Source of the DNA: Bacillota bacterium
Lineage (GTDB): Bacteria; Bacillota; Negativicutes; CTSoil-072
NCBI GenBank assembly: GCA_017889545.1
Contig: JAGFZV010000001.1
Span: 62,001 to 126,000 of the forward strand
Length of the DNA stretch: 64,000 bases
Direction: 5' to 3'
Positions within the stretch are counted from its first letter, which is position 1. Each line of letters begins with the position of its first letter. Position numbers and translations under genes: made by a program. The notes beneath the pieces were generated by a model. It ran no database searches. It was not told where the DNA came from and was given only the letters and a program-made list of their open reading frames with translations. This document shows, piece by piece, positions 3,087 through 28,139 of the stretch.

Positions 3087-4460
3087 CTACCGTTCTCTCA
3101 AGCCTTCGCTCTGATATTTCCGGAACGGGTCGAGGAAAAATTCAATGATCCGTTTTTCCCGCGTTTTGATTTCTGCGGAAACCGTCATGCCGGGGCCGAG
3201 GTATACTTTTTTATCGCCGACAATCAGGTAGTCGCGATCCAGTTGGAGGGTGACCCGGTAAACGCGGCCCTTCTCTTTATCCTCAATGGCGTCTGGACTG
3301 ATCTGTGTCACATGAGCGTCCAGATAGCCGTATTTTTGGAAATTAAAGGTTTCGACTTTTACTTCCGCCTGCTGGCCGCTATAAATAAAGCCAATATCCT
3401 GGTTGGCGGCCCAGGCCTCCACTTCCAGCGTCACATCCGCCGGCACGATCACCATCAGCGGCTGAGCTTCCGTTACCACCCCGCCGATCGTATGCACCGC
3501 CAATTGCGTCACACGGCCGTCGATCGGCGAAGTCAGACGGGCCAGACGGTTCTTCTCGTTGGCCATTTTCAACGTTTCCAGGGCCACTTGCAGCGCCTTG
3601 CGGTCTTCCACCATTTTGGCCGTGATGTCGCGGTTCCGTTCCGCGATCACGCTTTGCATCGCCTCCCGGCTCTGGGCCAGGGCGGCTTCGGCACGGATAA
3701 TCTCGCCCTCCTGGGCAGCCAGGTTCTGCTCCAGTTCAATGCGGCGGCCGCGGTACTCTAAAACGGTGAAGGTGGAAATGGCATTCTGCACCATGAGCTG
3801 CTCCAGGCGGTTTTCCCGGTCGCGGGCAATCTCGTATAAGGAGGCATATTTGTCACGGTTGACGCGGGCCACATTGACGGAGGCCTCGCCCTGGTTCACA
3901 CTGTGCCGCGCTACCGCCATCTTGCTGTTGAAATCGGCAGTGCGGCTCATATACAAGCTCATCTGGAAGGACAAGTCCTTGTCATCCAGATCGGGGCTCG
4001 GCTGGGGCGTAAACGGAGCATTGTTCATTTCCGCCAGCAGCCGGTCAATTTCCAGGTTGTAATAGGCCACTTCTTTTTTGATCCGGGCCAGTTCCGCGCC
4101 GGAAATGGTTTGATCCAATTCAATCAGCAAATCGCCACTTTTGACGGTCTGGCCGTCCTTGACGTTGATTTGCTTGACTACGCCTTTGCTCTCCGGCTGG
4201 ATCACCTTGACGTAACCGCTGGGAATAATTTTCCCCGGCGCAACCGCGACTTCGTCCACGTGGCCGAAGACGGACCATAAAAAGGCGACGCCGATAATCG
4301 CCACCAGCACCGCGATCAGCATGCGTACCGTCGGCGATACCGGATTTTCGGTAATTTCCAGGATGGCGGGCAGAAATTCGGTTTCTTCCGGCGCCAGCGT
4401 CTCGTTTCCCTTGCGTTTTGTGCCCAGCCATTTGGCCAGGTATCCTGTTTTCTTTTCCAT
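3087..4460 (-). CDS. hlyD: HlyD-family type I secretion membrane fusion protein
   Basis: This is the periplasmic adaptor of a type I secretion system, linking the inner-membrane ABC exporter to a TolC channel. It has a short cytoplasmic N-terminus, one membrane segment at about residues 45-67 (MLIAVLVAIIGVAFLWSVF), a biotinyl-lipoyl-like half motif (VIQPESKGVVKQINVKDGQ), a long coiled-coil hairpin at about 120-300, then the second lipoyl half and a beta-barrel ending in the HlyD C-terminal pattern (RVYRVTLQLDRDYL, PGMTVSAEIKTREKRIIEF). About 457 residues is typical. Three ATGs are in tandem at 4466-4460. The third is preferred because AAGAGGG then lies about six bases upstream. The preceding transporter's TGA overlaps these ATGs, so translation is probably coupled. 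Confidence 0.95.
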   Translation of the reverse strand: MEKKTGYLAKWLGTKRKGNETLAPEETEFLPAILEITENPVSPTVRMLIAVLVAIIGVAFLWSVFGHVDEVAVAPGKIIPSGYVKVIQPESKGVVKQINVKDGQTVKSGDLLIELDQTISGAELARIKKEVAYYNLEIDRLLAEMNNAPFTPQPSPDLDDKDLSFQMSLYMSRTADFNSKMAVARHSVNQGEASVNVARVNRDKYASLYEIARDRENRLEQLMVQNAISTFTVLEYRGRRIELEQNLAAQEGEIIRAEAALAQSREAMQSVIAERNRDITAKMVEDRKALQVALETLKMANEKNRLARLTSPIDGRVTQLAVHTIGGVVTEAQPLMVIVPADVTLEVEAWAANQDIGFIYSGQQAEVKVETFNFQKYGYLDAHVTQISPDAIEDKEKGRVYRVTLQLDRDYLIVGDKKVYLGPGMTVSAEIKTREKRIIEFFLDPFRKYQSEGLRER

Positions 4461-4462
4461 CA

Positions 4463-6601: not shown

Positions 6602-6630
6602 AATGGCGATCTCCTTTGCTGTGGCGTATT

Positions 6631-8790: not shown

Positions 8791-8870
8791 AGGGCCCCTT
8801 CTTTCCAGGCGATTTACACATAATTAGTTTACATTCTCTTACTGGATGTCCTTTTCCTGCCGGATGGCAG

Positions 8871-8907
8871 GGAAAAAACCGGCTGCGACTTCGCAACCGG
8901 TCTTTTT
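8871..8907 (-). terminator. Intrinsic terminator after the RTX gene
   Basis: A hairpin with outer stem ACCGG/CCGGT and inner stem TGCGA/TCGCA is followed by six T on the minus strand (8872-8877). It also has six T on the plus side, so it could work both ways. It lies between the RTX gene and the exporter genes and probably gives partial termination, so that cargo mRNA exceeds exporter mRNA. Confidence 0.75.
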
Positions 8908-8913
8908 TCGTTC

Positions 8914-11900
8914 TTAAAGGTGTCTGTATGAACCTTGTGCGCTGAGTAACGCAAGGATTTCCGATGCCGATTTCGTCGTCCCGTCGGCAAACACCAAGGT
9001 ATCCGCCTGATACTGCTGCGAACCGATCGTTCCTGTGCTGCTGAACCAATTTTCAAAGATAAGTGTTTGGCCTGTTGAACCTTCGCCGCTGTCTGTCCCA
9101 ATTCCCAGCACCAAATCGTAGGGGCTGTTGTCGCTGCCGTATTGTACCCAGCATTCATTGGCATGAAAGCCAATCAGCACCGTATCGCAGCCATTGGGAG
9201 TTCCGTCCTCCGTTGTGCTGACAATCCAGTCGCTGCCGTCACCTTCGCCCCAGACATAGACATCATCGCCGGCGCCGCCGGCCAGCAAATCGGCGCCGCT
9301 GCCGCCCTTCAGGGTATCATCGCCGGCACAGCCTTTGATTTTCACATCGTCGGTTTCATTGGTCCGGTCAATCGAATCGCTGCCAGAGCCACCCAAGAAC
9401 ACTTCAAAATCCGTCAAAACTTCGTTGGTGGCGATCAGTCCAGCGGTCAATTGCCGCGCATCAAATACATCGATACCGGCTCCGCCGTTAAACCAACCGG
9501 TTTGGTCTCCTGCATTAAATACCAACGTGTCATTGCCAAGGCTGCCGCTTAGGATGTTGCTGCCGCTGCCGCCATCAAGCAGATCGTTTCCAATGCCGCC
9601 GGTCAAAATATCATCACTATCGCCGCCGGTCAATGTTACGGATTCGGTTCGGTAGGACTGATCGATCACATTCGCCGCTGCGTTCCCGACAAATACTTCG
9701 AAATCAGCAAATTGAGAACCTATGGAAGTGTAAACTCCGCTTCCTGCTGTCAGCGTATCTATCCCGGCTCCGCCGGACAAAGCCCTAACACCGTCCCAAA
9801 CCATGCTGTCGTTGCCTGATCCGCCCACAATCACTTCAAAATCAGCAAGCTCTTGTGTGGTATCCACCGCCAGCGAACCGGCATAATTGCTGGCGTCGAT
9901 GGTATCCGTGCCCGCGCCGCCGGATAAATTTGCGAATTGGTCGGTGCCGTCATAGATCACAATGTCATTGCCGGCGCCGCCGGATAAAATGTCCTCTCTG
10001 CCAAGGCCGTCGATGGTATCGTTGCCGCCCAGACCGGCGATCGTATCGCTTCCGCGCGTGCCTGTCAAGACATCGGCGCCTTCTGTTCCCAGCGTATCCA
10101 TGCCGGTTGTCGACAGCCAAATGTAATCGCCGGCGCCGGGGCTGTCATTGGGCAGGTATTCATAAATCCGGCCGTCGCTGAAGACAACTTGGCCGATCCA
10201 GGCGCTGTACGCATCGTATGCGCCCGTGTCGCCAAGAATCGTGATGGTTTCATTGCTGCCGTTCATCGAGAAGGTATCCCCGGCGGCAGTGTGAATGTAG
10301 GTGATATCATTGGCGCTCAAATTTGTCAGAATCAGCGTGTCATTCGCGTTGTCGCTGTCAAAAGCGATCGTATCGTGGCCCGAGCCAAGGCCGAAAACAT
10401 AGCGGTCCGAGCCCGCTCCGCCGGCCAGCAGGTCATTTCCGGCCAGTCCATTCAGCGTATCGTTGCCGCCCAAGCCGGCCAACTGTTCGCCGTAAGCCGC
10501 TCCGCTGATGGAATCCGCTCCATCCGTCGCGTTGCCGATGAACACGAGGTGGTTGATTTGCGCCGTCGTCAGCGTTCCGTCACTGAATAGCATTTTCTGA
10601 ATCTGATACGCACTGCCCAAAAACCAATTGCTGATCCGCAGCACGTTTTGCGCGCCATCCTTCCATTGAACCAGCAAATCATTCTCAAACTGGCTGAAGG
10701 AATAAGCCGCGATCCTATTGTCTTCGCCGGCATAGAACTGAATGACGTCATTGGTACTGCCGTCGGAATTATCTATCGCAGTATAGGCTTTATTGCTGAT
10801 TGTATAGGTATCATTGCCCAAGCCGCCCCGCAAGGTTACATGAGAATCACGATATAAGTACGATTCGCTGTAGGTTGTGGAACGCAATTCATCGTTGCCG
10901 GCGCCGCCGTCCAGCAAATTGTGCCCGCCGCTATCAATCTCAGCGATCATCAGATCATTATCGTTCCCGCCAAACAGCTGCAATTCATTTGCGAAATTGG
11001 CTGCCGTGGTTAGCGTATCCCGGCCGCTTCCGCCATCAACCGTATCGTATTCACCATTCACGATGATACGATCATTGCCGGTGCCGCCGAGCAGCATGTC
11101 ACTGCCGGATCCTCCCGCCATGATCGTATCATTGCCTGCGCCGCCGTCGAGAAGATCATTGTTCTCATCCGAATCGTCAACTAGCAAATCGTTGCCGTCA
11201 CCGCCCAGCAATGTGTCATTGCCGGCATCCCCGTATAGTTCATCTGCCCCCGCAGCGCCAACAAGAGAGTCTGCGCCGCTGCCGCCAATTAGCAGATCAT
11301 TGCCGGTTCCGCCGGTCACCGTGTCGTTGCCGGCCAGTCCGTAGAAGATATTGGTCAATGTGCCGGAACCCGACAAATTGTTATTCGTTTCATTGCCTTG
11401 GACAAAATTTTCCAGATTGCAGGCTTGACCGTTCACCACAAATTGTTTGATCTTGTTGGCGCTTACATACCAGTCTGCGAACGTGATGGAACTCGTTTCG
11501 CTTCCGGCGCGCGGTGAAACAATCAAATCATTGCCCTGTCTGGCGAAGCCGAGATCATTCAGTTTTGATCCGTAATTTTCTTCGGAAACCGTGTCAAAAT
11601 GAAGAATTACTTTGTCGCCGGCGTTATCGCTCGCGCCGCGGATGGTATCGTGGCCAAACGTCAGCCCGCTGAAACGATAGGTATCCACCCCGGCGCCGCC
11701 AATCAGCACATCGTTGCCTGCCCCGCCGATCAAAAGATCAGCGGCTCCTGATCCGTTCAGGGTATCGTTGCCGCCCAGACCGTTGAGCAGATCCGCCAGC
11801 CCAGCGCCGTTCAGCACATCATTGTAATCGATCGTGTCACTTTCATCCTTGCCTTGGATGGGATTGCCAAGCACAAAGGTTTCATTGCCGGCAATCAGGC

Positions 11901-13695
11901 CGGTCAGCTTGTAACCGGACCCATCTTTCCAGCCTTGCACCGTAATCGAAGCTCCGGATAAGGAATCGCCGCCCAGGTACAGCATGAGATCATTGCCGCT
12001 GTAAGCGATCCCGACCTCCTCAATGCCGATGCCGTCAGCCAGCTTGATCTTGTCAAGATTATTGCCGGAGGCTTTCATGATAAGATCTCCGCCGGAATCC
12101 GCACCGAAAATATAGGTATCGACGCCGGCGCCGCCTCTTAACAGGTCGTTGCCGGTTCCGCCGTCAATCCGGTCATTGCCGCTGCCGCCATCCAGCAGAT
12201 CGTCGCCGGCGCCGCCAAGCAATATATCGCTGCTGCCATTGCCGCTGATGGTATCCGCTTGATCACTTCCCATCATCATTTCCGCACTGTCATTGCCGGT
12301 AATCGTATTGCCTGCGGCATTCGCTGCATCCAAATAGCGCTGGATGGTATAGTACTGACCGCCCATTCGGAATTTTGTCACTTTTGCAGTGGAACCTGCA
12401 TCATTCCAGCCTTCCAGCGTCACGGTATCCGTCCCCGCCTCGTCTTCCACACGGATCAACAGGTCACTGCCGGCGATGCTCATTTCAATGGAGTTTTCGC
12501 TGATACTGCTGCCAAATTCAATGGTATCACTGCCATTGTTCGCATACGCTTTGACAGTATCATGGCCGAAGCCGGCATCAAACCAGTAGACATCCGCGTC
12601 ATTGCCGCCGATGAAGATATCGTTGCCCGTACCGCCATTCAGCGTGTCCGCACCGCTCCCGCCATATAAGCGGTCGCTGCCGCTGCCGCCGTTCAATTTA
12701 TCCGCCCCGGTCAGACCCAGAAGAAGATCATCGCCGCTGCTGCCGCCCAACGTATCTGCCGACGCGGATCCTGCGGACAGCGAATAGAGCGCATCGTCCA
12801 TGCTCACGTTGCCGATCGCATAGTCAGCGCCTTCATTCCAGCTTTTCAACGTAACCTTTCCTTGCGAACTGCCAAAATCAAGGATCAAATCATTGCCGGT
12901 CCGCAACGAATTGGACAAATCGGCAATACCGCTCAGAGCAATGAGATCATGACGGTTGGAGGAATCCTTCAGGATGACATCATTGCCGGCGGAGCTTGCC
13001 CCAAACACATAGCAGTCCGGTCCTTCACCGCCCATCAGGGTATCCGCGCCGCCCTGGCCTTCGATCGTATCGCTGCCTGCTCCGCCGCTGAGCAGGTCAT
13101 TGCCGTCACCGCCAATGATCGCATCGTTGCCCGCGCCACCGTAAATTCCATCGTTGGCCAGACCGCCGTCCAGGAAATCATCGCCAATTCCACCCACCAG
13201 GATATCGGCGCCGGCAGCGCCGTTCAAGGTCGTTCTGGCATCGCCCGACCCGGCGATAAAGTCCGCTCCGCTGGTTCCGGCAGCTGCCTTGGCATATACC
13301 ATCGAGCCAATTTTGACATTTTTGACGCCATTTTCAAAAGTCAGCCACTCTTCCAAGGTAAGAGTATCGATTGTATCATTGCCGGTCATCCGAATGATGA
13401 GGTTCGGACCCGCCGTCTCATAGGAAAATTTGCTGAGCGCAATCGAGCCAAAATCGACGGTATCCGCGTCACTCGCATCCCCTGCGCCAATCGTGTCATT
13501 CCCGCCGCCGGCCGAAAATTTGTATGTATCATTGCCTGCACCGCCAAACAGCCGGTCATTCCCCGTTCCGCCGTTTAGGACATCGGCGCCGTCATTGCCG
13601 TACAAGGTATCCTCGCCGCCCAAACCATTCACCGTATCGGCCAGGCTGCTTCCCTGCAAGATGTTGTTTGCAGCATTTCCGCTAATCGTGGCCAT
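8914..13695 (-). CDS. RTX repeat (haemolysin-type calcium-binding) secreted protein
   Basis: This is a 1593-residue, very acidic, glycine- and aspartate-rich protein built almost wholly of calcium-binding RTX nonapeptides (GGxGNDxLx). It has no signal peptide, as expected for type I secretion. RTX blocks alternate with about eight beta-rich modules with the pattern NDLIxx, then an aromatic xxWF or xxW, then FxDG (haemolysin-type C-terminal-like domain). The C-terminus ends in such a module (TLIFENWFSS, TLVFADGTT), the usual place for the secretion signal. No enzymatic or toxin domain is visible, so an S-layer-like or adhesive surface protein is more likely than a toxin. The frame extends to 13800, but ATG 13695 has TAAGGAGG six bases upstream and the protein then begins MATISGNAANN. 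The exporter genes follow directly. Confidence 0.93.
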   Translation of the reverse strand: MATISGNAANNILQGSSLADTVNGLGGEDTLYGNDGADVLNGGTGNDRLFGGAGNDTYKFSAGGGNDTIGAGDASDADTVDFGSIALSKFSYETAGPNLIIRMTGNDTIDTLTLEEWLTFENGVKNVKIGSMVYAKAAAGTSGADFIAGSGDARTTLNGAAGADILVGGIGDDFLDGGLANDGIYGGAGNDAIIGGDGNDLLSGGAGSDTIEGQGGADTLMGGEGPDCYVFGASSAGNDVILKDSSNRHDLIALSGIADLSNSLRTGNDLILDFGSSQGKVTLKSWNEGADYAIGNVSMDDALYSLSAGSASADTLGGSSGDDLLLGLTGADKLNGGSGSDRLYGGSGADTLNGGTGNDIFIGGNDADVYWFDAGFGHDTVKAYANNGSDTIEFGSSISENSIEMSIAGSDLLIRVEDEAGTDTVTLEGWNDAGSTAKVTKFRMGGQYYTIQRYLDAANAAGNTITGNDSAEMMMGSDQADTISGNGSSDILLGGAGDDLLDGGSGNDRIDGGTGNDLLRGGAGVDTYIFGADSGGDLIMKASGNNLDKIKLADGIGIEEVGIAYSGNDLMLYLGGDSLSGASITVQGWKDGSGYKLTGLIAGNETFVLGNPIQGKDESDTIDYNDVLNGAGLADLLNGLGGNDTLNGSGAADLLIGGAGNDVLIGGAGVDTYRFSGLTFGHDTIRGASDNAGDKVILHFDTVSEENYGSKLNDLGFARQGNDLIVSPRAGSETSSITFADWYVSANKIKQFVVNGQACNLENFVQGNETNNNLSGSGTLTNIFYGLAGNDTVTGGTGNDLLIGGSGADSLVGAAGADELYGDAGNDTLLGGDGNDLLVDDSDENNDLLDGGAGNDTIMAGGSGSDMLLGGTGNDRIIVNGEYDTVDGGSGRDTLTTAANFANELQLFGGNDNDLMIAEIDSGGHNLLDGGAGNDELRSTTYSESYLYRDSHVTLRGGLGNDTYTISNKAYTAIDNSDGSTNDVIQFYAGEDNRIAAYSFSQFENDLLVQWKDGAQNVLRISNWFLGSAYQIQKMLFSDGTLTTAQINHLVFIGNATDGADSISGAAYGEQLAGLGGNDTLNGLAGNDLLAGGAGSDRYVFGLGSGHDTIAFDSDNANDTLILTNLSANDITYIHTAAGDTFSMNGSNETITILGDTGAYDAYSAWIGQVVFSDGRIYEYLPNDSPGAGDYIWLSTTGMDTLGTEGADVLTGTRGSDTIAGLGGNDTIDGLGREDILSGGAGNDIVIYDGTDQFANLSGGAGTDTIDASNYAGSLAVDTTQELADFEVIVGGSGNDSMVWDGVRALSGGAGIDTLTAGSGVYTSIGSQFADFEVFVGNAAANVIDQSYRTESVTLTGGDSDDILTGGIGNDLLDGGSGSNILSGSLGNDTLVFNAGDQTGWFNGGAGIDVFDARQLTAGLIATNEVLTDFEVFLGGSGSDSIDRTNETDDVKIKGCAGDDTLKGGSGADLLAGGAGDDVYVWGEGDGSDWIVSTTEDGTPNGCDTVLIGFHANECWVQYGSDNSPYDLVLGIGTDSGEGSTGQTLIFENWFSSTGTIGSQQYQADTLVFADGTTKSASEILALLSAQGSYRHL
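9250..13630 (-). repeat. Tandem RTX nonapeptide-coding repeats
   Basis: This stretch encodes dozens of GGxGxDxxx nonapeptides in about nine blocks separated by beta-rich modules. On the plus strand it shows as recurring ATCATTGCCGGCGCCGCC-like strings. A second, longer repeat occurs three times near the C-terminal third: LADFEVIVGGSGND, FADFEVFVGNAAAN and LTDFEVFLGGSGSD, each after a GGAG(T/I)D motif. Confidence 0.9.
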
Positions 13696-13758
13696 CCATA
13701 ACCTCCTTACTGCCCTGCCAAATAAAGCCGGATGCATGAAAAATTTTGAACCCTTTCT

Positions 13759-13806
13759 GAAAAAATGCAGGTTAAAACAAGGTTTGCTCCTTGCATTCAA
13801 CCTGCA
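13759..13806 (-). terminator. Intrinsic terminator after ugd
   Basis: A long hairpin has outer arms TGCAGGTT/AACCTGCA and inner arms CAAGG/CCTTG. On the minus strand it is followed by TTTTTTC. It ends the ugd transcript and insulates the RTX operon, whose promoter must lie in the roughly 60 bases between here and 13695. I saw no convincing -35/-10 pair there. Confidence 0.7.
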
Positions 13807-17396: not shown

Positions 17397-18365
17397 TTAA
17401 TGGCCCAGCAATTTGAGGATGTTCCAGCACAGCCTGTTCTTTGATAACACAATTTTGTATTTTAATGCTTCTGGCAGGCGCAGCGTCTTGAATGGGACGC
17501 ACTCCAACCGTTTGGCAAATTCGGCATCCGCCATCAAATCCAGCACGTCTTGGTGAGAGCCGGTTTTGATCATGCGCCACAGCAGACGGCAGCTTTGACG
17601 GCCCAGTTTGGCGTTGTGATAGCGCAGTACTTCTTCCAGATTGGAAGCGCCGGCCAGTTTTTGCGCCATGAAATCAATCGCCCGTTTGTAGCCATGCAGA
17701 GCGTGAATATGCCGTTTCCAGTTCCAGCGGGAGTTCAGCGTTGAGCCCTTGCGCTGCCGGTAAATCATCAAATCCCGGGGTACCGGCTGCACCGTGGCAA
17801 CCGTCAATACTTTGGCAATCATCTCCCAGTCCTGGCCAACCAGCCCTCCCGGCGTAAATGTAATGGCATGCTTGTCAAGCAGCGCCTTGTCAAACAGCAT
17901 GGCGCCGATATGAAAACGAACCGGCTTATCGGCCGGCGGAATGATTAATGATCCGCCTGGGTAGTGATAGCGGTATTTTCGTTTGTAGCCATTGCTGTAA
18001 AAGCGGCTGTAGCCGCTGTAAACGGCATCGGCGTTTGTTCGCATTTTAACGCCAACCGTCTCTGCCAAAAACTCCGGTTCCCAAAGATCATCGCCGTCAA
18101 GGAAAGCTACACACTGGCCCTTCGCTGCCCTCAATCCAGTATTGCGGGCGACAGAAACACCGCCGTTTTCCTGATTTATCAGCCGTATCCGCGGATCTGT
18201 CCGGGCCAATGCGGCTGCAATTTCCGCCGTATTATCGGTCGATCCGTCATTGACTATCAGTACTTCCCATTGTTCGTATGTTTGCGCCAGAATGGAGGAA
18301 ATACATTCTCCGAGATATGCACCTACGTTATACGAAGGCACTATGATAGAAACCAACATGCCCAT
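17397..18365 (-). CDS. GT2 glycosyltransferase
   Basis: This 322-residue inverting GT-A enzyme has the family 2 N-terminus VSIIVPSYNVGAYLGECISS, the nucleotide-binding VLIVNDGSTDNT and the metal-binding FLDGDDLW. It is a close paralogue of the plus-strand enzyme at 26190-27152: both share the GYSRxY region, the VGQDxE segment, RxGSxxxSxWNWxKHIHALxG and a short C-terminal helical tail. The pair probably add the same or related sugars to the LPS core. It starts at ATG 18365 after GAGGAG, and the TupA-like gene follows within about 30 bases. Confidence 0.9.
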   Translation of the reverse strand: MGMLVSIIVPSYNVGAYLGECISSILAQTYEQWEVLIVNDGSTDNTAEIAAALARTDPRIRLINQENGGVSVARNTGLRAAKGQCVAFLDGDDLWEPEFLAETVGVKMRTNADAVYSGYSRFYSNGYKRKYRYHYPGGSLIIPPADKPVRFHIGAMLFDKALLDKHAITFTPGGLVGQDWEMIAKVLTVATVQPVPRDLMIYRQRKGSTLNSRWNWKRHIHALHGYKRAIDFMAQKLAGASNLEEVLRYHNAKLGRQSCRLLWRMIKTGSHQDVLDLMADAEFAKRLECVPFKTLRLPEALKYKIVLSKNRLCWNILKLLGH

Positions 18366-18431: not shown

Positions 18432-19385
18432 TCAACTATCCCTATAAATACTGAAATCTATGCTATAGGCTTCCATGATTTTTGATAATTGTATATCATT
18501 TAAATTTTTACCAATATTTTGTTTTGCCAACCCAGTTTTATATAACCCCCGCAATGTAAAAAATTCACTTAATATCGGCATTGATTTCACCACTTTTACG
18601 CCATTTAAAACTCCCATGCATTTTAACCACATATCATCCGCCAAGGGTGCCAATTCTTTCATTGCCTTTTTATTAAATACTTCTTTATGCAAAATATGCG
18701 GCGGCCAAAGGCAACCCCCTACACCGGTCGGCACCAAAAGCATACTGGGATTTTTTTCACCTAATGCAAACGTAATCCATTTTGAATACGGAGCAACTTT
18801 ATTGTCGGCAAAGGTTATTTTATGGGCCCGATTGGCCACGATGCAATTAGGATGTCTTTGATATTGTTTCACTAATAAACTAACCATATTTTCCGGATAA
18901 AAAACATCATCATCCACAGTTATAACGATCGCATCAGGATTTTCCAACATCGTGTAGTAATATTTTTTATGACTGCGTAAATCATCACAAAATCTAATTT
19001 CAAGACCTCTTTTTTGCATATTGAGCACTTTACCAGGTAATTCTGAGAGTCCATTAGGAAATTGTTCTGCTGCCAGCCACAATATGATCCTATTCGGTTT
19101 AAATGACTGTCGCATCAAAGTCTCAAGAACAATCCAAATGGTATTCACCCTGGCCGGAAAGGTAGTAAGCGATAGGATAATTGGCGGCGATCCATCATAA
19201 GACCCGGCAGCAATGCCTGGTTGTTCGCTCTTATTGTAATGATAACACAAGGGAATCAGTATCCTTATCGATGCTTTGCAAAGCGAATATACAATTTTAT
19301 TGATTTTTTTTATCAGTATATTATTATTATGCAAATATCTATACTTTAAGAATGTTGTTGCTATGTCTTGAAAATACTGTATCAA
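18432..19385 (-). CDS. Putative glycosyltransferase (AT-rich)
   Basis: This 317-residue protein has a GT-A-like fold suggested by IILSLTTFPARVNTIWIVLE, NRIILWLA, and a DDD motif in VITVDDDVFYP. Its C-terminal half carries LADDMWLKC, like the second-metal or acceptor site of polysaccharide glycosyltransferases of uncertain family. It begins with TTG at 19385 after AGAGGATAA. Base composition is clearly more AT-rich than the genes on either side and several rare A/T-ending codons appear, so it may have arrived by transfer. The sugar donor and acceptor cannot be told from the sequence. Confidence 0.65.
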   Translation of the reverse strand: MIQYFQDIATTFLKYRYLHNNNILIKKINKIVYSLCKASIRILIPLCYHYNKSEQPGIAAGSYDGSPPIILSLTTFPARVNTIWIVLETLMRQSFKPNRIILWLAAEQFPNGLSELPGKVLNMQKRGLEIRFCDDLRSHKKYYYTMLENPDAIVITVDDDVFYPENMVSLLVKQYQRHPNCIVANRAHKITFADNKVAPYSKWITFALGEKNPSMLLVPTGVGGCLWPPHILHKEVFNKKAMKELAPLADDMWLKCMGVLNGVKVVKSMPILSEFFTLRGLYKTGLAKQNIGKNLNDIQLSKIMEAYSIDFSIYRDS

Positions 19386-19418: not shown

Positions 19419-20444
19419 TTAACGCTCGAGAAGCATTTTAATTGCATCATATACCGCAGATACGCTGATAACAGATAGGCAATCTTCTCCCCTGGGGCAG
19501 CTTCGCTGCCAACAGCCTGCGCATTCCCGGTTTGCGACCAGGGTTGTGTGCGCTTTTCCATACGGACCGTTGCGGCTTGTATCGGTCGGCCCGTACAGGC
19601 CAACGACCGGAGTGCCGATCGCCGCTGCCAAATGCAGGGGTCCGGTATCACCGCCGACAAACACACGAGCGCCCCGTATAATATGAATGAGTTGTTTTAG
19701 TGTCGTTTTACCAATTAAATCAACCGGCGGCACCACGGTGCCGGCAGCGATCGCATTGTACAGTTGGTGGTCTTTCGCCCCCCCGACGATCACCGGAATC
19801 AAGCCTTCATCGAATAACCGGTCGCAAAGTGCAGTAAAATGAGTCGTTGGCCAGCATTTATTCGGCCAATTTGTCCCAGGCGCTAAAATAGCGTATCGCC
19901 GGCTCATATCCAGTCCCGCCTGCGCAGCCGCAGCCACGGCCATTTCCTGTTCTCGCGGCGTAAGGACGAAGGTGAAAACAGGTTCTTTGGGTTCACAATC
20001 AAGCGCCCGGACAACATCAAGATAACGTTCCACCACATGCCCGTGACAGTTCGGCCCGCAGATCCGCTGACTGAACCAATCACTTATTTCGCGTGTGTTT
20101 TCATATACCAAACGATGTTTCGCGCCACTGGCAAACGCAATAACGGCGCTTTTGAAAAGCCCCTGCAGGTCAAGCGCCAAATCGAAATGGCGGGAACGTA
20201 ATTTACGGATAAAATCCGGTGTCTGTTTGATAAAACCTGCCACGGATTTAAATTTCGGCTTATCAAACACAATAATTTCGTCGATGTCAGGATGATGGGT
20301 AAGGAGATCATACGCTGGTTTTTCCACTACCCATGTGATCCGGGCAGCCGGAAAACATGTTTTCAATGCATGCGCCACCGGTAACGCATGGACTACGTCG
20401 CCGATGGCGCTCAATTTCACAATGAGAATATTATGATATGTCAT
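19419..20444 (-). CDS. waaF: LPS heptosyltransferase, GT9 family
   Basis: The 341 residues fit ADP-heptose:LPS heptosyltransferases, which add L-glycero-D-manno-heptose to the Kdo-lipid A inner core. The N-terminus ILIVKLSAIGDVVHALPVAHAL and the ADP-heptose site FVGGDTGPLHLAAAIGTPVVG followed by LYGPTD are characteristic. The N-terminus is closer to WaaC than WaaF, so which heptose it adds is open. It starts at ATG 20444 with AGGAG, 10 bases after the heptose adenylyltransferase. The three genes together supply and use ADP-heptose. Confidence 0.88.
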   Translation of the reverse strand: MTYHNILIVKLSAIGDVVHALPVAHALKTCFPAARITWVVEKPAYDLLTHHPDIDEIIVFDKPKFKSVAGFIKQTPDFIRKLRSRHFDLALDLQGLFKSAVIAFASGAKHRLVYENTREISDWFSQRICGPNCHGHVVERYLDVVRALDCEPKEPVFTFVLTPREQEMAVAAAAQAGLDMSRRYAILAPGTNWPNKCWPTTHFTALCDRLFDEGLIPVIVGGAKDHQLYNAIAAGTVVPPVDLIGKTTLKQLIHIIRGARVFVGGDTGPLHLAAAIGTPVVGLYGPTDTSRNGPYGKAHTTLVANRECAGCWQRSCPRGEDCLSVISVSAVYDAIKMLLER

Positions 20445-20454
20445 GAAAAAACTC

Positions 20455-20931
20455 CTATGTATTTTCCTGTTCAGAAATTTTGCGTATGATGGTTGAGGTG
20501 GACCGGCCGGGAACTTCCGGTATCAACACGGTCTTGCCGCCGTAAGCGGCGACGGTTTTGGCTTCCGGCAGCTCTTGCGCGCAATAGTCGCCGCCCTTTA
20601 CGTAAATATCAGGTTGTATTTCAGCGATCAACCGCTCTGCTGTGCGGTCAGCAAAAATCACTACATAATCAACGGCCTCCAGCGCAGATAGAACTTCCGC
20701 CCGGTCTTGTTCGTGATTGACAGGCCGCGAGGAGCCTTTCAGGCTGCGAACAGACGCATCGCTGTTCAGTCCGACAATCAGGCAATCTCCCAGCGCCCGG
20801 GCCGCCGCCAAGTAACGGACGTGACCGGCGTGAAGAATATCAAAACAGCCATTTGTAAAAACCACTTTGGCGCCTTTGATTTTTAACCGCTGAATATGCT
20901 CCTGAAGCTGTTTATCCGTTGCTATTTTCAT
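20455..20931 (-). CDS. rfaE2: D-glycero-beta-D-manno-heptose 1-phosphate adenylyltransferase
   Basis: This 158-residue nucleotidyltransferase converts heptose 1-phosphate plus ATP to ADP-heptose. It contains the family signature FTNGCFDILHAGHVRYL with the HxGH motif and the C-terminal VPGRSTSTIIRKI with the related ISTS-like nucleotide site. It equals the C-terminal half of E. coli HldE, here as a separate gene. Its ATG at 20931 follows GGGAG and overlaps the end of the kinase gene, so the two are translationally coupled. Confidence 0.95.
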   Translation of the reverse strand: MKIATDKQLQEHIQRLKIKGAKVVFTNGCFDILHAGHVRYLAAARALGDCLIVGLNSDASVRSLKGSSRPVNHEQDRAEVLSALEAVDYVVIFADRTAERLIAEIQPDIYVKGGDYCAQELPEAKTVAAYGGKTVLIPEVPGRSTSTIIRKISEQENT

Positions 20932-21922
20932 AATAACTCCCGATCACTTCTTTCAGCTCTGCCGGTGAAACGGTCGCCGCGCCAAATTTTGTCACTACGA
21001 CTCCTGCGGCAAAATTGGCTAATTGCGCCGCTTCGACATAATTGGCGCCGGCTGCCAACGCCAATGCCATCGCTGCCACGGCCGTGTCGCCGGCACCGGT
21101 GACATCAAAGACTTCACTGACATCGACCACAGGAATATGAGTCACTTTCCCTCCATGTTCGAAGATGCTCATCCCTTCCGGCCCGCGCGTCAGCATAATC
21201 GCCTGCGCTTCCATAAGCTCCAGCAATTGCCGGCCGGCGGCCAGAAGATTGCTTTCATTAAGCGTATCATAACCCAAGGCTGCCGCAATCTCAGATTCAT
21301 TTTGCTTGATCACAGTCGCCCCTTTGTAGGCCAATATATTATACCGCGAATCAACGATGCAGGGAATATTTTTTTCCTTGCACAGGTCGATCACTTGGCG
21401 CAATAACGATGGTGAAATCGCACTGCCGCCATAATCGCTCATCACTACCGCACCGATTTGATCGATTGCCGTTTTGACCGCTGTCAAGACGGTGCTTTCC
21501 GCATGGGTGGATAGGGGTGTCCGGTCCTCCCGGTCGATGCGCACAACTTGCTGACGCACCGTAGCCTTCGCTCCCGCCATAATCCTTGTCTTTGTGGTGG
21601 TTGGCCGGATGTCATCGGTGATCAGGCCGTCCGTATTGACCTTGCGCTCCTGTAAACAGCGGGCAAGCTCCCGGCCGGTATCGTCCCTGCCGATCACGCC
21701 TACCGCACGCACAAGTCCTCCCAGGACAGCCGCATTTAAAACTACGTTGGCCGCTCCTCCGGGGACTACTTTTTCGCCGGAATATTCCAGCACAAGAACC
21801 GGCGCTTCCCGGGAAATGCGGGCGATCTTTCCTTCTAAATATACATCGGCGACCATATCGCCGAGTACCAATATTTTCTTTTGCTGCATGGCGTCCAGCA
21901 ACTCAAACAGCTTTTTTTGCAC
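20912..21922 (-). CDS. rfaE1: D-glycero-beta-D-manno-heptose-7-phosphate kinase
   Basis: This 336-residue PfkB/ribokinase-family enzyme matches the N-terminal half of HldE and phosphorylates heptose 7-phosphate at C1. Seen are the N-terminal KILVLGDMVADVYLEGKIARISREAP, the substrate motif VVPGGAANVVLNAAVLGG and the C-terminal anion-hole motif DVTGAGDTAVAAMALALAAG. It starts with GTG at 21922, with GGGAG upstream. The epimerase and phosphatase needed for ADP-L-glycero heptose (gmhA, gmhB, hldD) are not in the window. Confidence 0.95.
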   Translation of the reverse strand: MQKKLFELLDAMQQKKILVLGDMVADVYLEGKIARISREAPVLVLEYSGEKVVPGGAANVVLNAAVLGGLVRAVGVIGRDDTGRELARCLQERKVNTDGLITDDIRPTTTKTRIMAGAKATVRQQVVRIDREDRTPLSTHAESTVLTAVKTAIDQIGAVVMSDYGGSAISPSLLRQVIDLCKEKNIPCIVDSRYNILAYKGATVIKQNESEIAAALGYDTLNESNLLAAGRQLLELMEAQAIMLTRGPEGMSIFEHGGKVTHIPVVDVSEVFDVTGAGDTAVAAMALALAAGANYVEAAQLANFAAGVVVTKFGAATVSPAELKEVIGSYYENSNG

Positions 21923-21945: not shown

Positions 21946-23328
21946 TTACCATCTGGTAACTGTAAAATCACAATCCCATTCCTTCCGTTTCTCGCGATAA
22001 GTAACGGCCATATCCCAGCAATGGAAGTTGTGATACCAGGTATAATCCCTGTCGTATACGCGGTGATCACCTAAATCATAGCGGTGAGAAATGCCAATCG
22101 AGTTCAGCCGGTCCACCTTATAAATGACGCCGAAGTCAAGTTCTTTTCCCATATCGGCCTGATTGAATGCAAAAAGGCCTTCATTGTTCATCGTATAATG
22201 ATAGGCAACAGAGGAAGACCATTTCGACGACCATTTCGTATCCAGCTTTACATCTGCTCGTGGCGAGTTCCGCTGCGAATGGTCATAACTTTCCCGGATC
22301 GTTTCCCAACCGGCGCCAATCGATAGCTTGGACTTCGCGCCGACTTGTATCGGATCATGGGTAAAGTACAGCAGATAATCCTGGTGCCAGCTTCGGATCG
22401 CCCCATCCTGCCAAAAGCCCGATACGGCGGTAAAGGTATATTTAATCGGTGAAGATCCAATTTTTCGCGGAACCGTTTCCAACTTAATTTCCGGATCTTT
22501 TTTTACCCAGTCAGCATCGGCATCGCGAAAACTGCCTTTGATGACGGAAAGCGAAAACGTTTTTTCCCGATTAATGACGCCGTATACCGGCTTGAAGCCG
22601 GAGCGGCTGTAATAGGCTGGGTCAGCATATATAGAAGTGTGGTCGCCCAGCGGATATTCGAAGTGCTGCCGGATGTACACGCCGTTCCGGCTGTTGTACC
22701 CAATGGTTGGAAATTCCGTTTCCGATCCAGTCCCCAGCATCTTCTGGTATTTCGGCAGAGAAAAGATCACTGTGTTTTTAATCCAAAATTTCGCATCATA
22801 GAAGATCATTTTTTCGCCCGGCCAAATTTCCACCTTCGAAGCGCTCACATGATAATCCGGAACCTTGGCCGGGCACTTTGTGACCGTTCCATTGTGAATA
22901 ATCGCTTGATTCGGCAGCACTTCAATGGTATCGGCGGCGACACGCTGCTTGTCAACCATTCCGGCGACTTTCTGCATCGATCCCGTTTGCTTCTCGTAGT
23001 TATAGCGGACGGCATTGCCGGTTAGATCCACGCCGGGCTGCAGCATATGAGCCTGACCGTCAATCCAGACCTCGCTTTGTTTGGTGTTGCCGTCAATGTG
23101 ATTCGCCATAACCTTATTCTGCCCTTGGGTGATAATCACATTTCCGTCGGCAAACAGCACCCCGGTCGAATCATTAAAATGCAGGGTTTCTGCTTCGATG
23201 ACAATCGGAATTTGCGCCGCTTGAACCGGTTTGTCAGTCTTGACATCTGCCGCTTCCGCCGTTAAAGCAAATCCTGCCGCCAATGTTGCTGCGAGGATAG
23301 CCCGAAAAGCATTTTTACAAATGTTCAT
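21946..23328 (-). CDS. Short LptD/OstA-like LPS assembly protein
   Basis: This 460-residue exported protein has a signal peptide (about 1-26, ending TAEA) and an OstA/LptA-like jelly-roll at about 40-160, seen in IVIEAETLHFNDSTGVLFADG and VITQGQNKVMANHIDG. A beta-barrel-like half follows, ending in an aromatic residue (VTRW). This is the domain order of LptD, which inserts LPS into the outer leaflet. It is far shorter than E. coli LptD (about 780 residues), leaving room for perhaps half the strands of its 26-strand barrel. It may be a specialised or partial LptD. The start at 23328 has CAGGAG upstream, directly after a TGACT-N4-AGTCA palindrome. Confidence 0.75.
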   Translation of the reverse strand: MNICKNAFRAILAATLAAGFALTAEAADVKTDKPVQAAQIPIVIEAETLHFNDSTGVLFADGNVIITQGQNKVMANHIDGNTKQSEVWIDGQAHMLQPGVDLTGNAVRYNYEKQTGSMQKVAGMVDKQRVAADTIEVLPNQAIIHNGTVTKCPAKVPDYHVSASKVEIWPGEKMIFYDAKFWIKNTVIFSLPKYQKMLGTGSETEFPTIGYNSRNGVYIRQHFEYPLGDHTSIYADPAYYSRSGFKPVYGVINREKTFSLSVIKGSFRDADADWVKKDPEIKLETVPRKIGSSPIKYTFTAVSGFWQDGAIRSWHQDYLLYFTHDPIQVGAKSKLSIGAGWETIRESYDHSQRNSPRADVKLDTKWSSKWSSSVAYHYTMNNEGLFAFNQADMGKELDFGVIYKVDRLNSIGISHRYDLGDHRVYDRDYTWYHNFHCWDMAVTYREKRKEWDCDFTVTRW

Positions 23329-23390: not shown

Positions 23391-26090
23391 TTATTCTACA
23401 CCTGCTATTTTTCTCCTGCCTTTTCTATTCGCGGAATTAATTTCTTCCCGTTTGATGATTTTTTCCAGCCGGAGCGCCAATTCCGACACTTGCGGTTCAA
23501 GCATCAGCGTCCGATGATCGCCCGGAATTTTATACACATCGATCCCTTTTTCAGCCAGTCCGCTCCATCCGAGTTCCTGGTCCTGATTTCCGTATTCTTC
23601 CTGATCGGCGGCGCAGAATAACGTCAGTTTTCCAGGGAACAGCGCAGGCTGATACTTTCTTCTTGCGGTCATAAATTGCGACCGAAGCTGCTGTTCTTCT
23701 GTTTTACGTCCCTGATTGACCGCCAGCGCAGGGATAAATTTTCCGACTTTACGCCGCAGACGGTCCAGTTCTTTTTGTGCGCGCGACTGAAAATATTCCT
23801 TCCAGCCGCCCCCGGAAAATTCTTCCCGCCGCAGCATGCTTTTTTTCACGCGGTATACCAGTCGGTATAATTCGCGTTCAGGCCGCAGCAATCCTCGGAT
23901 CATAACGTTCGGATGCCTGGTGTCAAACAGAGCCAGCAAAGCGATTTCCTGCCCTGCGCGGCGCAGCTGCTGCGCCATTTCAAAAGCAATCAATCCGCCC
24001 AGGGAATGTCCGGCCAAATAATAAGGCCCTTGTGGCTGTACTGCCCGGATGTCCCGCACATACCGGCGCGCAAGACTTTCAATGCTCATTTCCGGATTGC
24101 CAAGCACTTCCTGAAATCGCAGCCCATATACCGGGAACAAATCGCCAAGGCATTTACTCAGATAGACATATTCCACTACTTTCCCGTCAATTGGATGCAC
24201 ACAGAATAAAATTGGATTTGAGCCTTTCAATTGTATGGGAACTACTGATGAACCAACCGGCATGCCATCTTCCTGTTCGGCCAAAAGCAAAGCCATTTTC
24301 TCCACCGAACAGCCTTCAAAAAGATCCATTAACGGGATCGACTGCCCCCAGCGTTCTTCTACCATTGTCAACAGCCGCACTGCCGCCAACGAATCGCCGC
24401 CTAATTGGAAAAAGTCATCTGTAACGCTAATCGGCCCGGTCTCCAGGATTTCTTCCCATAATTTGATCAGCTGCTCTTCTTGTTCGTTTCGCGGAGTCAC
24501 TAATTTCCGCTGTTCGTTAATGGTAGATCCGGCAATTCCCAATTGCTCGGCAAGCAAAGCACGCTGTATTTTTCCGGTGGAGCCTTTTGGCAGGGCATCT
24601 ACGAAGAAGAAGCGGCTTGGCACCTTGTAGAACGCAAGTTTCCCCAGTAAAAACCGGCGAAGATCGCATTCCTGCACTTCCCGCCCCGGCTTAAAAACGA
24701 CTGCAGCCGCAACGTCTTCCCCCAGTTTTGGATGGGAAAGCGCAAATGCAGCCGCTTCCGCTATGCAGGGATGTTCCAAAAGGCACTCGTCCACCAGCTG
24801 CGGCGAAACTTTCTGCCCGCCGCGGTTGATGATCTCCTTGCTCCGTCCGGTAATAAACAAATATCCGTCGTCGTCAAAATATCCCTGATCGCCGCTTTTG
24901 AACCATCGACCGTGAAAAGCGTCACGGTTGGCTTGCGGGTTATTTTCATACCCGCTCAATACCGTATTGCCAGATAAAATGATTTCTCCCGTTTCGTTGG
25001 GCGGCAGCCGGCATCCCTGCTGATCGACAATCTGGATTTCACAGCCGTTCGATTTTCCTACCGATCCTAATTTGCGCTTTTCCGGCGGCAGTGGATTACT
25101 GGCAATTTGCGATGACGCTTCTGTCATTCCATAGGTCTCAATCACTGGAACCCCGAACGCATCTTCCAATTTTTCGATCAGAGCGGGAGCCAAAGCGGCG
25201 GCAGCGGACCGGATAAACCGCAGGGAAGAAGGCAAAGCAGGCTGACCCGTTGCCAGGGCATGACGTAAAATATTCTGGTGCACAGTGGGCGCGGCGGTAT
25301 ACCATGTGGGTTTCATTGTTTCAAGCATATGAAAAAAAAGCTCCGCGTCATATGCATTGGCGCAAATAACTACCGAACCGCCGGTCGCAAGGGAAGCCAG
25401 AACAGCGATGACAAGACCGTGCGTATGAAAAAGCGGCGCAGTGTTCAAGCAACGGTCTTGCGCAGTCAAACGAAATGCCCGTGCCGTATTCTGCAAGGAA
25501 GTGTTTATCATTTTATGCGTGAGCGGCACCATTTTCGGACGGGAGGTCGTCCCTGATGTGTGAATGATCAATGCCGTATCGTCAGACATTGCAAAGGTCA
25601 TGCCTCCCGTATGCGAACGGGCATCGCCGATCAGGAACGGTCCTTTGTTTCCGCCTTGGCCTTCTGCCGCCAATCGGATAACCGGAATAGCAAGCTCTTG
25701 GGCTGCCGCCTCTGCTGCTGTGTTTCCCGCCTCTTCGATAATGAAGGTCTTCGCTTTTACATCTGCTAAATAAAACATAAATTCATCTTTTGAATACCCC
25801 GGGTACAGCGGAGCGCAAGCGCCGATGGCTGATACCCCCAAGAATACCATGGCCAATTCCGGACTGTTAGGCAAAGCAACAGCTACCCGGTCACCCCTGT
25901 GAATTCCCATCTTGGATAGTTGCTCTGACAGCTGACTTACATTCAGCATCATCTCATGATACGTATGCACTTGTTCTTGTGCGGAAATTAGCGCAGCTGC
26001 CAACGGGTTTTTCTCCGCCTGCCGGCCAATCGTGTCCATAATTGTATCATGACTAAAGTTGCTGCTTGGAATAGACGGCATTTTTTGCAT
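23391..26090 (-). CDS. Single-module adenylation-carrier-thioesterase protein (NRPS-like)
   Basis: This 899-residue protein has three domains. Residues 1 to about 525 are an acyl-activating enzyme with the P-loop IIHTSGTTSRPKMVPLTHK (about 175), YGMTEASSQIASNPLPP, SGDQGYFDDDGYLFITGRSK and the catalytic lysine motif PKGSTGKIQR. Residues about 540-615 are a carrier domain with the phosphopantetheine serine in FFQLGGDSLAAVRLL. Residues about 640-880 are an alpha/beta thioesterase with LAGHSLGGLIAFEM, a likely Asp in LFDTRHP and His in PGDHRTLMLEP. The activating domain looks more like oxalyl-CoA-synthetase-type (AAE3) ligases than amino-acid adenylation domains, so the substrate may be a small organic acid. 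No condensation domain is present. It would activate an acyl group and release or transfer it. It lies between LPS genes and its product is unknown. Start ATG 26090, AAGGAG upstream. Confidence 0.85.
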   Translation of the reverse strand: MQKMPSIPSSNFSHDTIMDTIGRQAEKNPLAAALISAQEQVHTYHEMMLNVSQLSEQLSKMGIHRGDRVAVALPNSPELAMVFLGVSAIGACAPLYPGYSKDEFMFYLADVKAKTFIIEEAGNTAAEAAAQELAIPVIRLAAEGQGGNKGPFLIGDARSHTGGMTFAMSDDTALIIHTSGTTSRPKMVPLTHKMINTSLQNTARAFRLTAQDRCLNTAPLFHTHGLVIAVLASLATGGSVVICANAYDAELFFHMLETMKPTWYTAAPTVHQNILRHALATGQPALPSSLRFIRSAAAALAPALIEKLEDAFGVPVIETYGMTEASSQIASNPLPPEKRKLGSVGKSNGCEIQIVDQQGCRLPPNETGEIILSGNTVLSGYENNPQANRDAFHGRWFKSGDQGYFDDDGYLFITGRSKEIINRGGQKVSPQLVDECLLEHPCIAEAAAFALSHPKLGEDVAAAVVFKPGREVQECDLRRFLLGKLAFYKVPSRFFFVDALPKGSTGKIQRALLAEQLGIAGSTINEQRKLVTPRNEQEEQLIKLWEEILETGPISVTDDFFQLGGDSLAAVRLLTMVEERWGQSIPLMDLFEGCSVEKMALLLAEQEDGMPVGSSVVPIQLKGSNPILFCVHPIDGKVVEYVYLSKCLGDLFPVYGLRFQEVLGNPEMSIESLARRYVRDIRAVQPQGPYYLAGHSLGGLIAFEMAQQLRRAGQEIALLALFDTRHPNVMIRGLLRPERELYRLVYRVKKSMLRREEFSGGGWKEYFQSRAQKELDRLRRKVGKFIPALAVNQGRKTEEQQLRSQFMTARRKYQPALFPGKLTLFCAADQEEYGNQDQELGWSGLAEKGIDVYKIPGDHRTLMLEPQVSELALRLEKIIKREEINSANRKGRRKIAGVE

Positions 26091-26155: not shown

Positions 26156-26189
26156 AATCATATGAGTATATAAGTGGGAGTTGGATTTT

Positions 26190-27152
26190 TTGGATCATTT
26201 CGTGTCCATTGTCGTACCGGCATATAATGTTGCCAATGAAATTGAAGATTGCATCCAGTCCGTCCAGGCGCAAACTTATCCAAACTGGGAGCTGCTCGTT
26301 GTTAATGACGGTTCCACGGATGACACGGCTGCAAAGGTAGAAAAGTTATCGGCCGGCGATGCGCGGGTCCGCTTAATCAATCAGGTCAATCGCGGGGTAT
26401 CAACTGCGCGAAACACCGGGATCAAAGAAGCCAGGGGAGACTACATCGCTTTTTTGGATGGCGATGATCTGTGGGATCCGCGTTTTTTGGCGGAATTAGC
26501 AGCCGCAAAACAACGTTACGGCGTCGATTTGGTGTATTGCGGTTATAGCCGGCTCTATCATAAAAATGTAAAACTGGGCTATAATTACGCCTATGCGGAT
26601 AACGATGTATTTCTGGCAGCAATTACCGGAAAAACGCAAATTCATGTTGGAGCGATTTTGGTTGATAAAAAACTTCTGACAACCTTTGATCTTGCGTTTA
26701 CAGACGGCTGCCTGGTCGGCCAGGATCAGGAGTTTATTATCAAACTGGCTGCTGTGGCAACGGCTCGCTCTGTGCCGAAAGAACTGTTAATTTATCGTAA
26801 ACGCGCAGGATCGGCGATCCATTCGTCCTGGAATTGGCAAAAACATATTCACGCTCTCTATGGCCTTCAGCGCGCCATTGTTTTTGCCGCAGCTGAATTG
26901 AAAAAACGGCAGATTGAAAACTATCATCAGGAAATGAATTTCCGCCTGGCTTATAAAAGCTATAAGTTTTTTTGGCGAATGATCCGCCACGGGTACCACG
27001 ACGATGCGCTGCGCCTTCTGACGGAAGAAAAATGGAAAACAATTTTATCCCATCTGGAGCTAAACCGCCTGTCGATTTCTGATCGGCTAAAATATTCGCT
27101 ACTCGGATCCCGCAATCCATGGTTGTGGAAGTTGGCCGCAAAAATCGGTTAA
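26190..27152 (+). CDS. GT2 glycosyltransferase (paralogue of 17397-18365)
   Basis: This inverting GT-A glycosyltransferase of about 320 residues is the only clear plus-strand gene here. Motifs are FVSIVVPAYNVANEIEDCIQ, LLVVNDGSTDDT and FLDGDDLWDPRFL. The C-terminal half closely follows its paralogue at 17397-18365, including GCLVGQDQEF and SSWNWQKHIHALYG. The frame opens at TTG 26181, but GTGGGAG directly abuts that codon. TTG 26190, nine bases after the ribosome binding site, is the better start. It is transcribed away from the adenylation-thioesterase gene and is followed by a strong terminator. It probably builds the LPS outer core or a surface glycan. Confidence 0.88.
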   Translation: MDHFVSIVVPAYNVANEIEDCIQSVQAQTYPNWELLVVNDGSTDDTAAKVEKLSAGDARVRLINQVNRGVSTARNTGIKEARGDYIAFLDGDDLWDPRFLAELAAAKQRYGVDLVYCGYSRLYHKNVKLGYNYAYADNDVFLAAITGKTQIHVGAILVDKKLLTTFDLAFTDGCLVGQDQEFIIKLAAVATARSVPKELLIYRKRAGSAIHSSWNWQKHIHALYGLQRAIVFAAAELKKRQIENYHQEMNFRLAYKSYKFFWRMIRHGYHDDALRLLTEEKWKTILSHLELNRLSISDRLKYSLLGSRNPWLWKLAAKIG

Positions 27153-27215: not shown

Positions 27216-28139
27216 CTATTTCACTTGTAAACCATACACTTGCGTTTCCGTCTTGGTCTGTATGTAGAGTTCTGTGCCGGCCGGCATCTTCACTTCTTCC
27301 CCATGGACAAATGCGCCGCCCACTACGCCAATCGGTCCGAGAACAACCAGTCCGGCTACTGCTGCGCCGGCGGCTTTGGCCATCGAGCGTGTTTTTTCTT
27401 TGGCTTTGTCGCCCAGAACCGTGTTCATGTTGCTGCCATCAAGGGCCGTAATGGTATCGAAGGCAATTTCCATTTTTGCATCCCGGCCAAAATTTTTCGA
27501 CCGATCGATTTTGATTACTTTGCCGCTTCCAAGAGCTCCTTTGGCGATCACAAGCGTCCCCTCGACAATGACATCCTCCGCAGCCCGAAAGACTACTTGA
27601 TCGCCTGCCAGCGAGGTTCGGGTGTCGAGAGGGGTAATCGTCATAATCTTTACCAGAAGATCACTGGATACTTGCGCAGCCTGCACATTCAACTGACCGT
27701 TTGCAAAGGACAGTTTTGCCAATTTCGTCAACCGGCTGTCAAACGCTTCGTCAGAAACTGTCCCAATCAGCAGCTTCTCCAGATTTTCAAGTCTGACGTT
27801 TACCGCATCGGCAGTTACCGTATGCGTAAGCACCCATTCCGTCGCATTGAGCTTCAGCGCAAAGGAAGGGGCTGCCGGAGCATTCTGCGTCATGTAACCA
27901 TACACACGATCCACTTTGCCAAGAAGCGCCTCCTTGCTTTCCAGGCCGTAAACAGTCTTTTCCACTTTTGCGACCCGGTCCACTAACGCTCCCGGCTGCT
28001 CCGCGCCATAAAAATAGTTCTCCACTGCCGCTGTTTTATCCAGTGCAGTCATTTCCTGTCCCTGCGCCAGCGCAACCCCTGCACACATCATCAGCAGCAG
28101 TACTGCAAGCGCCAATCCCATTGAAAGTTTGCTACGCAT
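27216..28139 (-). CDS. Exported protein of unknown function
   Basis: I do not recognise a family. The 307 residues begin with a clear signal peptide (SKLSMGLALAVLLLMMCAGV, then ALAQG). The N-terminal third has two repeats, AAVENYFYGAEQPGALVDRV and KVEKTVYGLESKEALLGKV, of the short EKxxYGxE...L..R(V) pattern found in exported proteins of Negativicutes. A third, weaker copy is NVRLENLEKLLIGTVSDE. The C-terminal half has beta-rich segments (VVFRAAEDVIVEGTLVIAKG) and a glycine-rich hydrophobic stretch AGAAVAGLVVLGPIGVVGGA at about 255-275, perhaps membrane-associated. It starts at ATG 28139 with AGGAGG. It is probably periplasmic or on the outer-membrane inner face, co-transcribed with the next small exported protein. 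Confidence 0.75.
   Translation of the reverse strand: MRSKLSMGLALAVLLLMMCAGVALAQGQEMTALDKTAAVENYFYGAEQPGALVDRVAKVEKTVYGLESKEALLGKVDRVYGYMTQNAPAAPSFALKLNATEWVLTHTVTADAVNVRLENLEKLLIGTVSDEAFDSRLTKLAKLSFANGQLNVQAAQVSSDLLVKIMTITPLDTRTSLAGDQVVFRAAEDVIVEGTLVIAKGALGSGKVIKIDRSKNFGRDAKMEIAFDTITALDGSNMNTVLGDKAKEKTRSMAKAAGAAVAGLVVLGPIGVVGGAFVHGEEVKMPAGTELYIQTKTETQVYGLQVK

Follow-up and report, generated by a model that had tools for sequence, protein, structure and literature searches.

A stand-alone adenylation–carrier–thioesterase protein in a Negativicutes LPS locus: a possible acyl donor for surface glycans

A gene in an outer-membrane and LPS gene block of a Negativicutes genome encodes a protein in which an adenylation (A) domain, a carrier (PCP) domain and a thioesterase (TE) domain are joined in one chain (Table 1). 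The data suggest, with a probability of about 0.45, that this A-PCP-TE protein is a single-chain enzyme that donates a PCP-tethered acyl group to a surface glycan. The gene block occupies the window, which is the whole 64-kb stretch of DNA that was analysed.

Table 1. Features of the A-PCP-TE gene and its neighbours (positions within the window)
Feature	Position	Strand	Details
Heptosyltransferase (GT9)	19419..20444	-	PF01075; TIGR02193/02195
ADP-heptose pathway adenylyltransferase (HldE domain II)	20455..20931	-	TIGR02199 over cut-off
ADP-heptose pathway kinase (HldE domain I)	20912..21922	-	TIGR02198 1.2e-99, just under cut-off
LptD-like OstA-domain protein, short, 460 aa, OstA/LptD_N	21946..23328	-	PF03968
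Stand-alone A-PCP-TE gene	23391..26090	-	899 aa, ATG start
Type I thioesterase domain, residues 627-876	23463..24212	-	PF00975 1.1e-28; S696/D723/H859
Carrier (PCP) domain, residues 539-600	24291..24476	-	PF00550 6.6e-14; attachment Ser567 in LGGDS motif
Adenylation (A) domain, AAE3/Pcs60-like, residues about 15-507	24570..26048	-	PF00501/PF13193; pocket H222, A297, S327
Divergent GT2 glycosyltransferase	26181..27152	+	PF00535 8.7e-38; 45% identical to GT2 at 17397-18365
Conserved ~305-aa protein, marks right edge of insertion	27216..28139	-	homologue adjoins lptD-like gene in relatives

Pfam searches of the A-PCP-TE protein identified AMP-binding (residues 23-381, 1.2e-77), AMP-binding_C (residues 433-507), PP-binding and Thioesterase domains, and no Condensation domain. 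As the E-value of each domain was below 1e-11, the architecture is not a matter of chance, and the preliminary description of a complete one-module protein for acyl activation, carriage and thioesterase action was confirmed. The catalytic motifs of the A domain are intact (A3 TSGTT, A10 K507), the attachment serine of the carrier is present and the TE triad is complete, while an Sfp-type PPTase is encoded in the same genome; these observations together favour a role of the protein as a glycan acyl donor. The mean pLDDT of the AlphaFold model was 80; the A domain and the TE core were modelled with confidence, but the placement of the domains relative to each other was uncertain (pTM 0.54). When the model was compared with solved structures using Foldseek, EntF and AB3403 matched almost the full length of the protein, and oxalyl-CoA synthetases matched the A domain; the solved relatives of the TE domain also include type I FAS thioesterases. 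EntF and AB3403 were among the top sequence matches as well, and these terminal NRPS modules share the PCP-TE part and the fold with the window protein, but they carry a condensation domain and an amino-acid A domain. The Pfam, AlphaFold and Foldseek results agree with the order of the non-reducing NRPS-like enzymes, which have A, carrier and TE domains in one chain without a condensation domain. All matches of the A-PCP-TE protein to NCBIfam families were below threshold (FadD7, 410 bits versus a cut-off of 650), so that it was assigned to no named family.

The A domain was best matched in the PDB by AAE3 (5ie0, 1.5e-114), followed by the grass-pea and yeast oxalate-CoA ligases. It is about 40% identical to the solved oxalyl-CoA synthetases AAE3 (PDB 5ie0-5ie3) and Pcs60 (8aff), among which its sequence nests, and it has in common with them the motifs PLFHxHG, TWYTA, RFIRS and SNPLP, although these enzymes use free CoA and have neither carrier nor TE. 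In a maximum-likelihood tree the window A domain grouped with those of its relatives in genomes G088 and G314 (support 99/94), next to those of two paralogues, C40 and C14, and of a relative in G043 (100/100 for these three, with a weak joining branch, 88/73). All A-PCP-TE A domains fell with AAE3 and Pcs60, far from the amino-acid NRPS A domains (separation 100/100). Hence, the phylogeny that the preliminary description had proposed agrees with the PDB matches and the fold search, and it upholds the earlier assignment of the A domain to an oxalyl-CoA-synthetase-like rather than a standard amino-acid type.

The residues of the substrate pocket point away from both oxalate and standard amino acids. 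The pocket was compared by conservation at AAE3 positions 214, 289 and 319 only, which we take to line the oxalate site. The His-Ser-His set at these positions is kept in AAE3, Pcs60 and the grass-pea enzyme, while in the window protein two of the three residues are changed (S289 to A297 and H319 to S327) and H222 is retained, which makes oxalate an unlikely substrate. It could still be argued that oxalate, or a short dicarboxylic acid close to it, is activated by the protein and ends up in an oxalyl ester or amide, since the A domain nests with the oxalyl-CoA synthetases, and since relatives and paralogues that load NRPSs hold the complete His-Ser-His set. However, the closest relative (G088) shares the His-Ala-Ser pocket, and the A-PCP-TE group ranges over HAS, HGG, NAS, HSP and HSS, with His-Ser-His retained in the Argonema protein, so that we regard this explanation as quite improbable. 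The wide pocket variation across the A-PCP-TE radiation suggests new substrates. In a motif alignment the equivalent of the amino-acid-binding Asp235 of GrsA was His222, which, together with the grouping of the A domain apart from amino-acid A domains, makes a standard amino acid unlikely. As judged from these residues, the substrate is likely a small carboxylic acid other than oxalate.

The position of the gene is consistent with a link to LPS. To its right lie lipid A, Kdo, Lpt and BamA-like genes, as recognized by sequence reading, and to its left heptose and glycosyltransferase genes, and so the earlier placement inside an LPS locus was borne out by a conserved LPS and outer-membrane gene block. 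The gene is located 62 nt upstream of the lptD-like gene on the same strand, after which come the genes for the two HldE parts and the heptosyltransferase, and the 62-nt gap contains no terminator-like site, which favours a link to the glycan. A putative promoter of the lptD-like gene, TTGACA-16-TATGAT, was found at 23926-23899, inside the A-PCP-TE gene; the lptD-like gene may thus have its own promoter, and co-transcription of the two genes is putative. The location between an LptD-like gene and a glycosyltransferase gene stood in that both adjoin, but it needed refinement, because the LptD-like protein is short and the glycosyltransferase gene is divergent and does not belong to the same operon.

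Comparison with other genomes of the class indicated that the gene was inserted into this locus. Of 200 genomes, 188 encode a relative of the lptD-like protein. In the 29 other loci that were fetched, the immediate neighbour of the lptD-like gene is a homologue of the ~305-aa protein gene in 26 cases, and none of these 29 loci contains an A or TE domain. Since the lptD-like and ~305-aa genes are normally neighbours, the A-PCP-TE gene and the divergent GT2 gene represent an insertion between them. Several genomes (e.g., G092, G093 and G303) encode relatives of this GT2 at a distance of a few kb from their lptD-like gene, which identifies the GT2 as an LPS-type transferase. The base composition of the insert is the same as that of its surroundings (GC 51%, GC3 52%), so that a recent foreign origin is unsupported by composition; the 64-kb window contains no tRNA. 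The shared insertion with an LPS-type GT2 into a conserved gene pair and the neighbour-like composition both favour the glycan acyl donor. The ~305-aa protein itself looks exported and is without a Pfam family.

Relatives of the protein are rare and only some of them are found near glycan genes. Strong matches were present in only 13 of 380 class genomes, and only five of these, the own genome included, had A-PCP-TE proteins of this group, while searches at the family and order level returned the own genome alone. Further relatives, in a sample that is small, came from Cyanobacteria, one Caldiserica MAG and an alphaproteobacterial plasmid; the plasmid relatives were mostly ordinary NRPS ends (27-29% identity), and those of Gemmobacter and Sphingobium had no glycan context close by. 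In G314 a polysaccharide locus with Bac_transf, a MurJ-type flippase, a Wzy_C-like gene (just under cut-off), GT4 and Capsule_synth ends with the gene of the clade mate, which overlaps the gene before it. The Caldiserica copy, truncated by the end of its contig, overlaps a gene for a glycosyltransferase after Bac_transf. In these two other lineages the relatives occupy the last or a late position in polysaccharide operons. In Anaerolineaceae an A-PCP relative starts 27 nt after a gene for a PglD-like hexapeptide acyltransferase. A GT2 gene was found within 3 kb at 3 of 11 loci, versus 0.42 expected from genome counts (P = 0.007, post hoc), and this enrichment is suggestive of a glycan link, with a criterion picked after the loci had been seen, three loci carrying the effect and two closely related Nostoc loci in the set. 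These neighbourhoods favour the assignment to glycan modification. On the other hand, no glycan neighbours were seen at most A-PCP-TE relatives, namely those in G088, G292, G043, Nostoc and Gemmobacter and the C40 and C14 copies of the own genome. The closest relative, in G088 (48% identity), is located between fabG and an MFS gene for a Bcr-type transporter, away from glycan genes.

The own genome encodes two further A-PCP-TE proteins. The C40 copy (41% identity; L092:8773-11415) lies in a flagellar locus, between flaG/fliD/fliS-like and flagellin genes, which is a usual site for flagellin modification genes, and the C14 copy (39%) follows an arginase-family gene in a metabolic locus. On the contig that contains the window, 28 kb past the window edge, an A-PCP paralogue (46%) directly precedes a C-A-PCP-TE NRPS gene. 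This NRPS cluster (L089:12399-18893 and L004, own genome C1) is located beside sugar-nucleotide genes, about 28-33 kb to the left of where the window begins, and it also contains an Sfp-type PPTase gene and an asparagine-synthase-like gene. Its A-PCP loader has the complete oxalate-type pocket (His-Ser-His), and the cluster could conceivably make an oxalyl-starting peptide. In a verrucomicrobial MAG (L012:2256-7093), an A-PCP protein with His-Ser-His precedes a Condensation-TE protein that lacks an A domain, and the pair is a predicted minimal two-protein acyl-condensing system. Since the nearby NRPS cluster has A-PCP and TE domains of a related kind, the window protein could be an NRPS-derived leftover, either decaying or acting in trans as a module for the A-PCP and C-A-PCP-TE proteins. 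We find this improbable, because no catalytic residue has been lost and an identity of 40-48% is retained in distant genomes, which argues for selection, and because the protein has its own TE, which would be superfluous for handing on. With paralogues in flagellar, metabolic and NRPS loci and the G088 gene away from glycan genes, the link to LPS is partial. The genome-context survey suggested in the preliminary description thus gave a divided answer, and the unusual acyl decoration of LPS, or else a free metabolite, that it had envisaged is consistent with the LPS and polysaccharide placements and does not extend to the relatives in general.

The main rival to a glycan acyl donor is an enzyme for a free small metabolite, in which one acid would be loaded and the TE would condense or cyclise two copies or release the modified acid, the LPS position being incidental. 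The domain order is identical to that of the A-T-TE NRPS-like enzymes (fungal quinone and furanone synthetases, bacterial RalA and EchA), whose TE condenses two alpha-keto acids (PMC9047271; PMC10316625). The paralogues are spread over unrelated loci, a transporter gene adjoins the closest relative, and at the YGMTE position the window protein has Met, which is also present in a keto-acid A domain (PMC11253843) but is common in acyl-CoA ligases. However, the keto-acid enzymes of the RalA and AtrA type are marked by Val at code position 1 (GrsA 235; PMC10316625) and StsA has Ile there (PMC11253843), while the window protein has His and an acyl-CoA-ligase-type A domain in the oxalyl-CoA synthetase branch. 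As no precursor or tailoring gene adjoins the A-PCP-TE gene in the window either, we consider a free metabolite somewhat unlikely, although it is the explanation to be weighed most seriously against the preferred one.

As a glycan acyl donor, the protein would form in its A domain the acyl-adenylate of a small carboxylic acid, which would be no standard amino acid and probably not oxalate, and load it onto the phosphopantetheine arm at Ser567, from which the acyl group would pass to Ser696 of the TE. The TE would then hand the acyl group over, presumably in the cytoplasm before export, to an acceptor that is most likely a hydroxyl or amine of an LPS core sugar or of the activated precursor of this sugar. 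The loading and TE steps are proposed because of the domain families, while we infer the acid, the acceptor and transfer rather than hydrolysis by the TE; no TE that transfers an acyl group to a glycan was found. In Dlt D-alanylation (DltA/DltC/DltB), a carrier-bound activated acid likewise esterifies an envelope polymer, but with separate proteins, D-Ala as the substrate and a membrane acyltransferase. That adenylation-carrier chemistry can feed LPS is shown by Vibrio cholerae, where AlmE, AlmF and AlmG are required to place glycine on lipid A and AlmF is a carrier protein (PMC4790380). This system is different from the one described here, as it consists of three separate proteins and uses glycine and transfer by AlmG, in contrast to a non-amino acid and a TE fused in one chain. 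Searches of the open-access literature found no paper that describes a TE in a capsule locus or an A-PCP-TE protein whose A domain is of the oxalyl-CoA type; hence, the earlier remark that no LPS pathway with such an enzyme had been described holds for the exact protein, while its chemistry has a precedent in AlmEFG.

A broader and more doubtful proposal is that a recurring family of one-chain acyl donors, which arose by fusion of oxalyl-CoA-synthetase-like A domains to a carrier and a TE, decorates bacterial surface glycans with unusual organic acids, on LPS core, capsule and perhaps flagellin, each copy with its own substrate. If the glycan role is true, it would constitute an NRPS-like route by which unknown acids are attached to LPS and capsules, and it would bear on diderm Firmicutes, a group in which little is known about the chemistry of LPS. 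The differences in the pocket from copy to copy point to several substrates, and the study of one gene would open a small family.

The locus also contains other genes worth noting. No clear LptD was reported in Negativicutes in a 2016 eLife study (PMC5007114), which, together with the wide occurrence of its relatives in the class, makes the protein encoded next to the A-PCP-TE gene an LptD candidate. A gene for a 317-aa protein without a Pfam match (18432-19385), with a GC content of 36%, far below that of its neighbours, is located among the LPS glycosyltransferase genes, two genes from a TupA ATP-grasp gene. The region 3087-13800 encodes a large RTX-repeat protein (1628 aa) together with two putative type I secretion ABC transporters and one putative membrane fusion protein, and further RTX-repeat proteins are encoded at L090.
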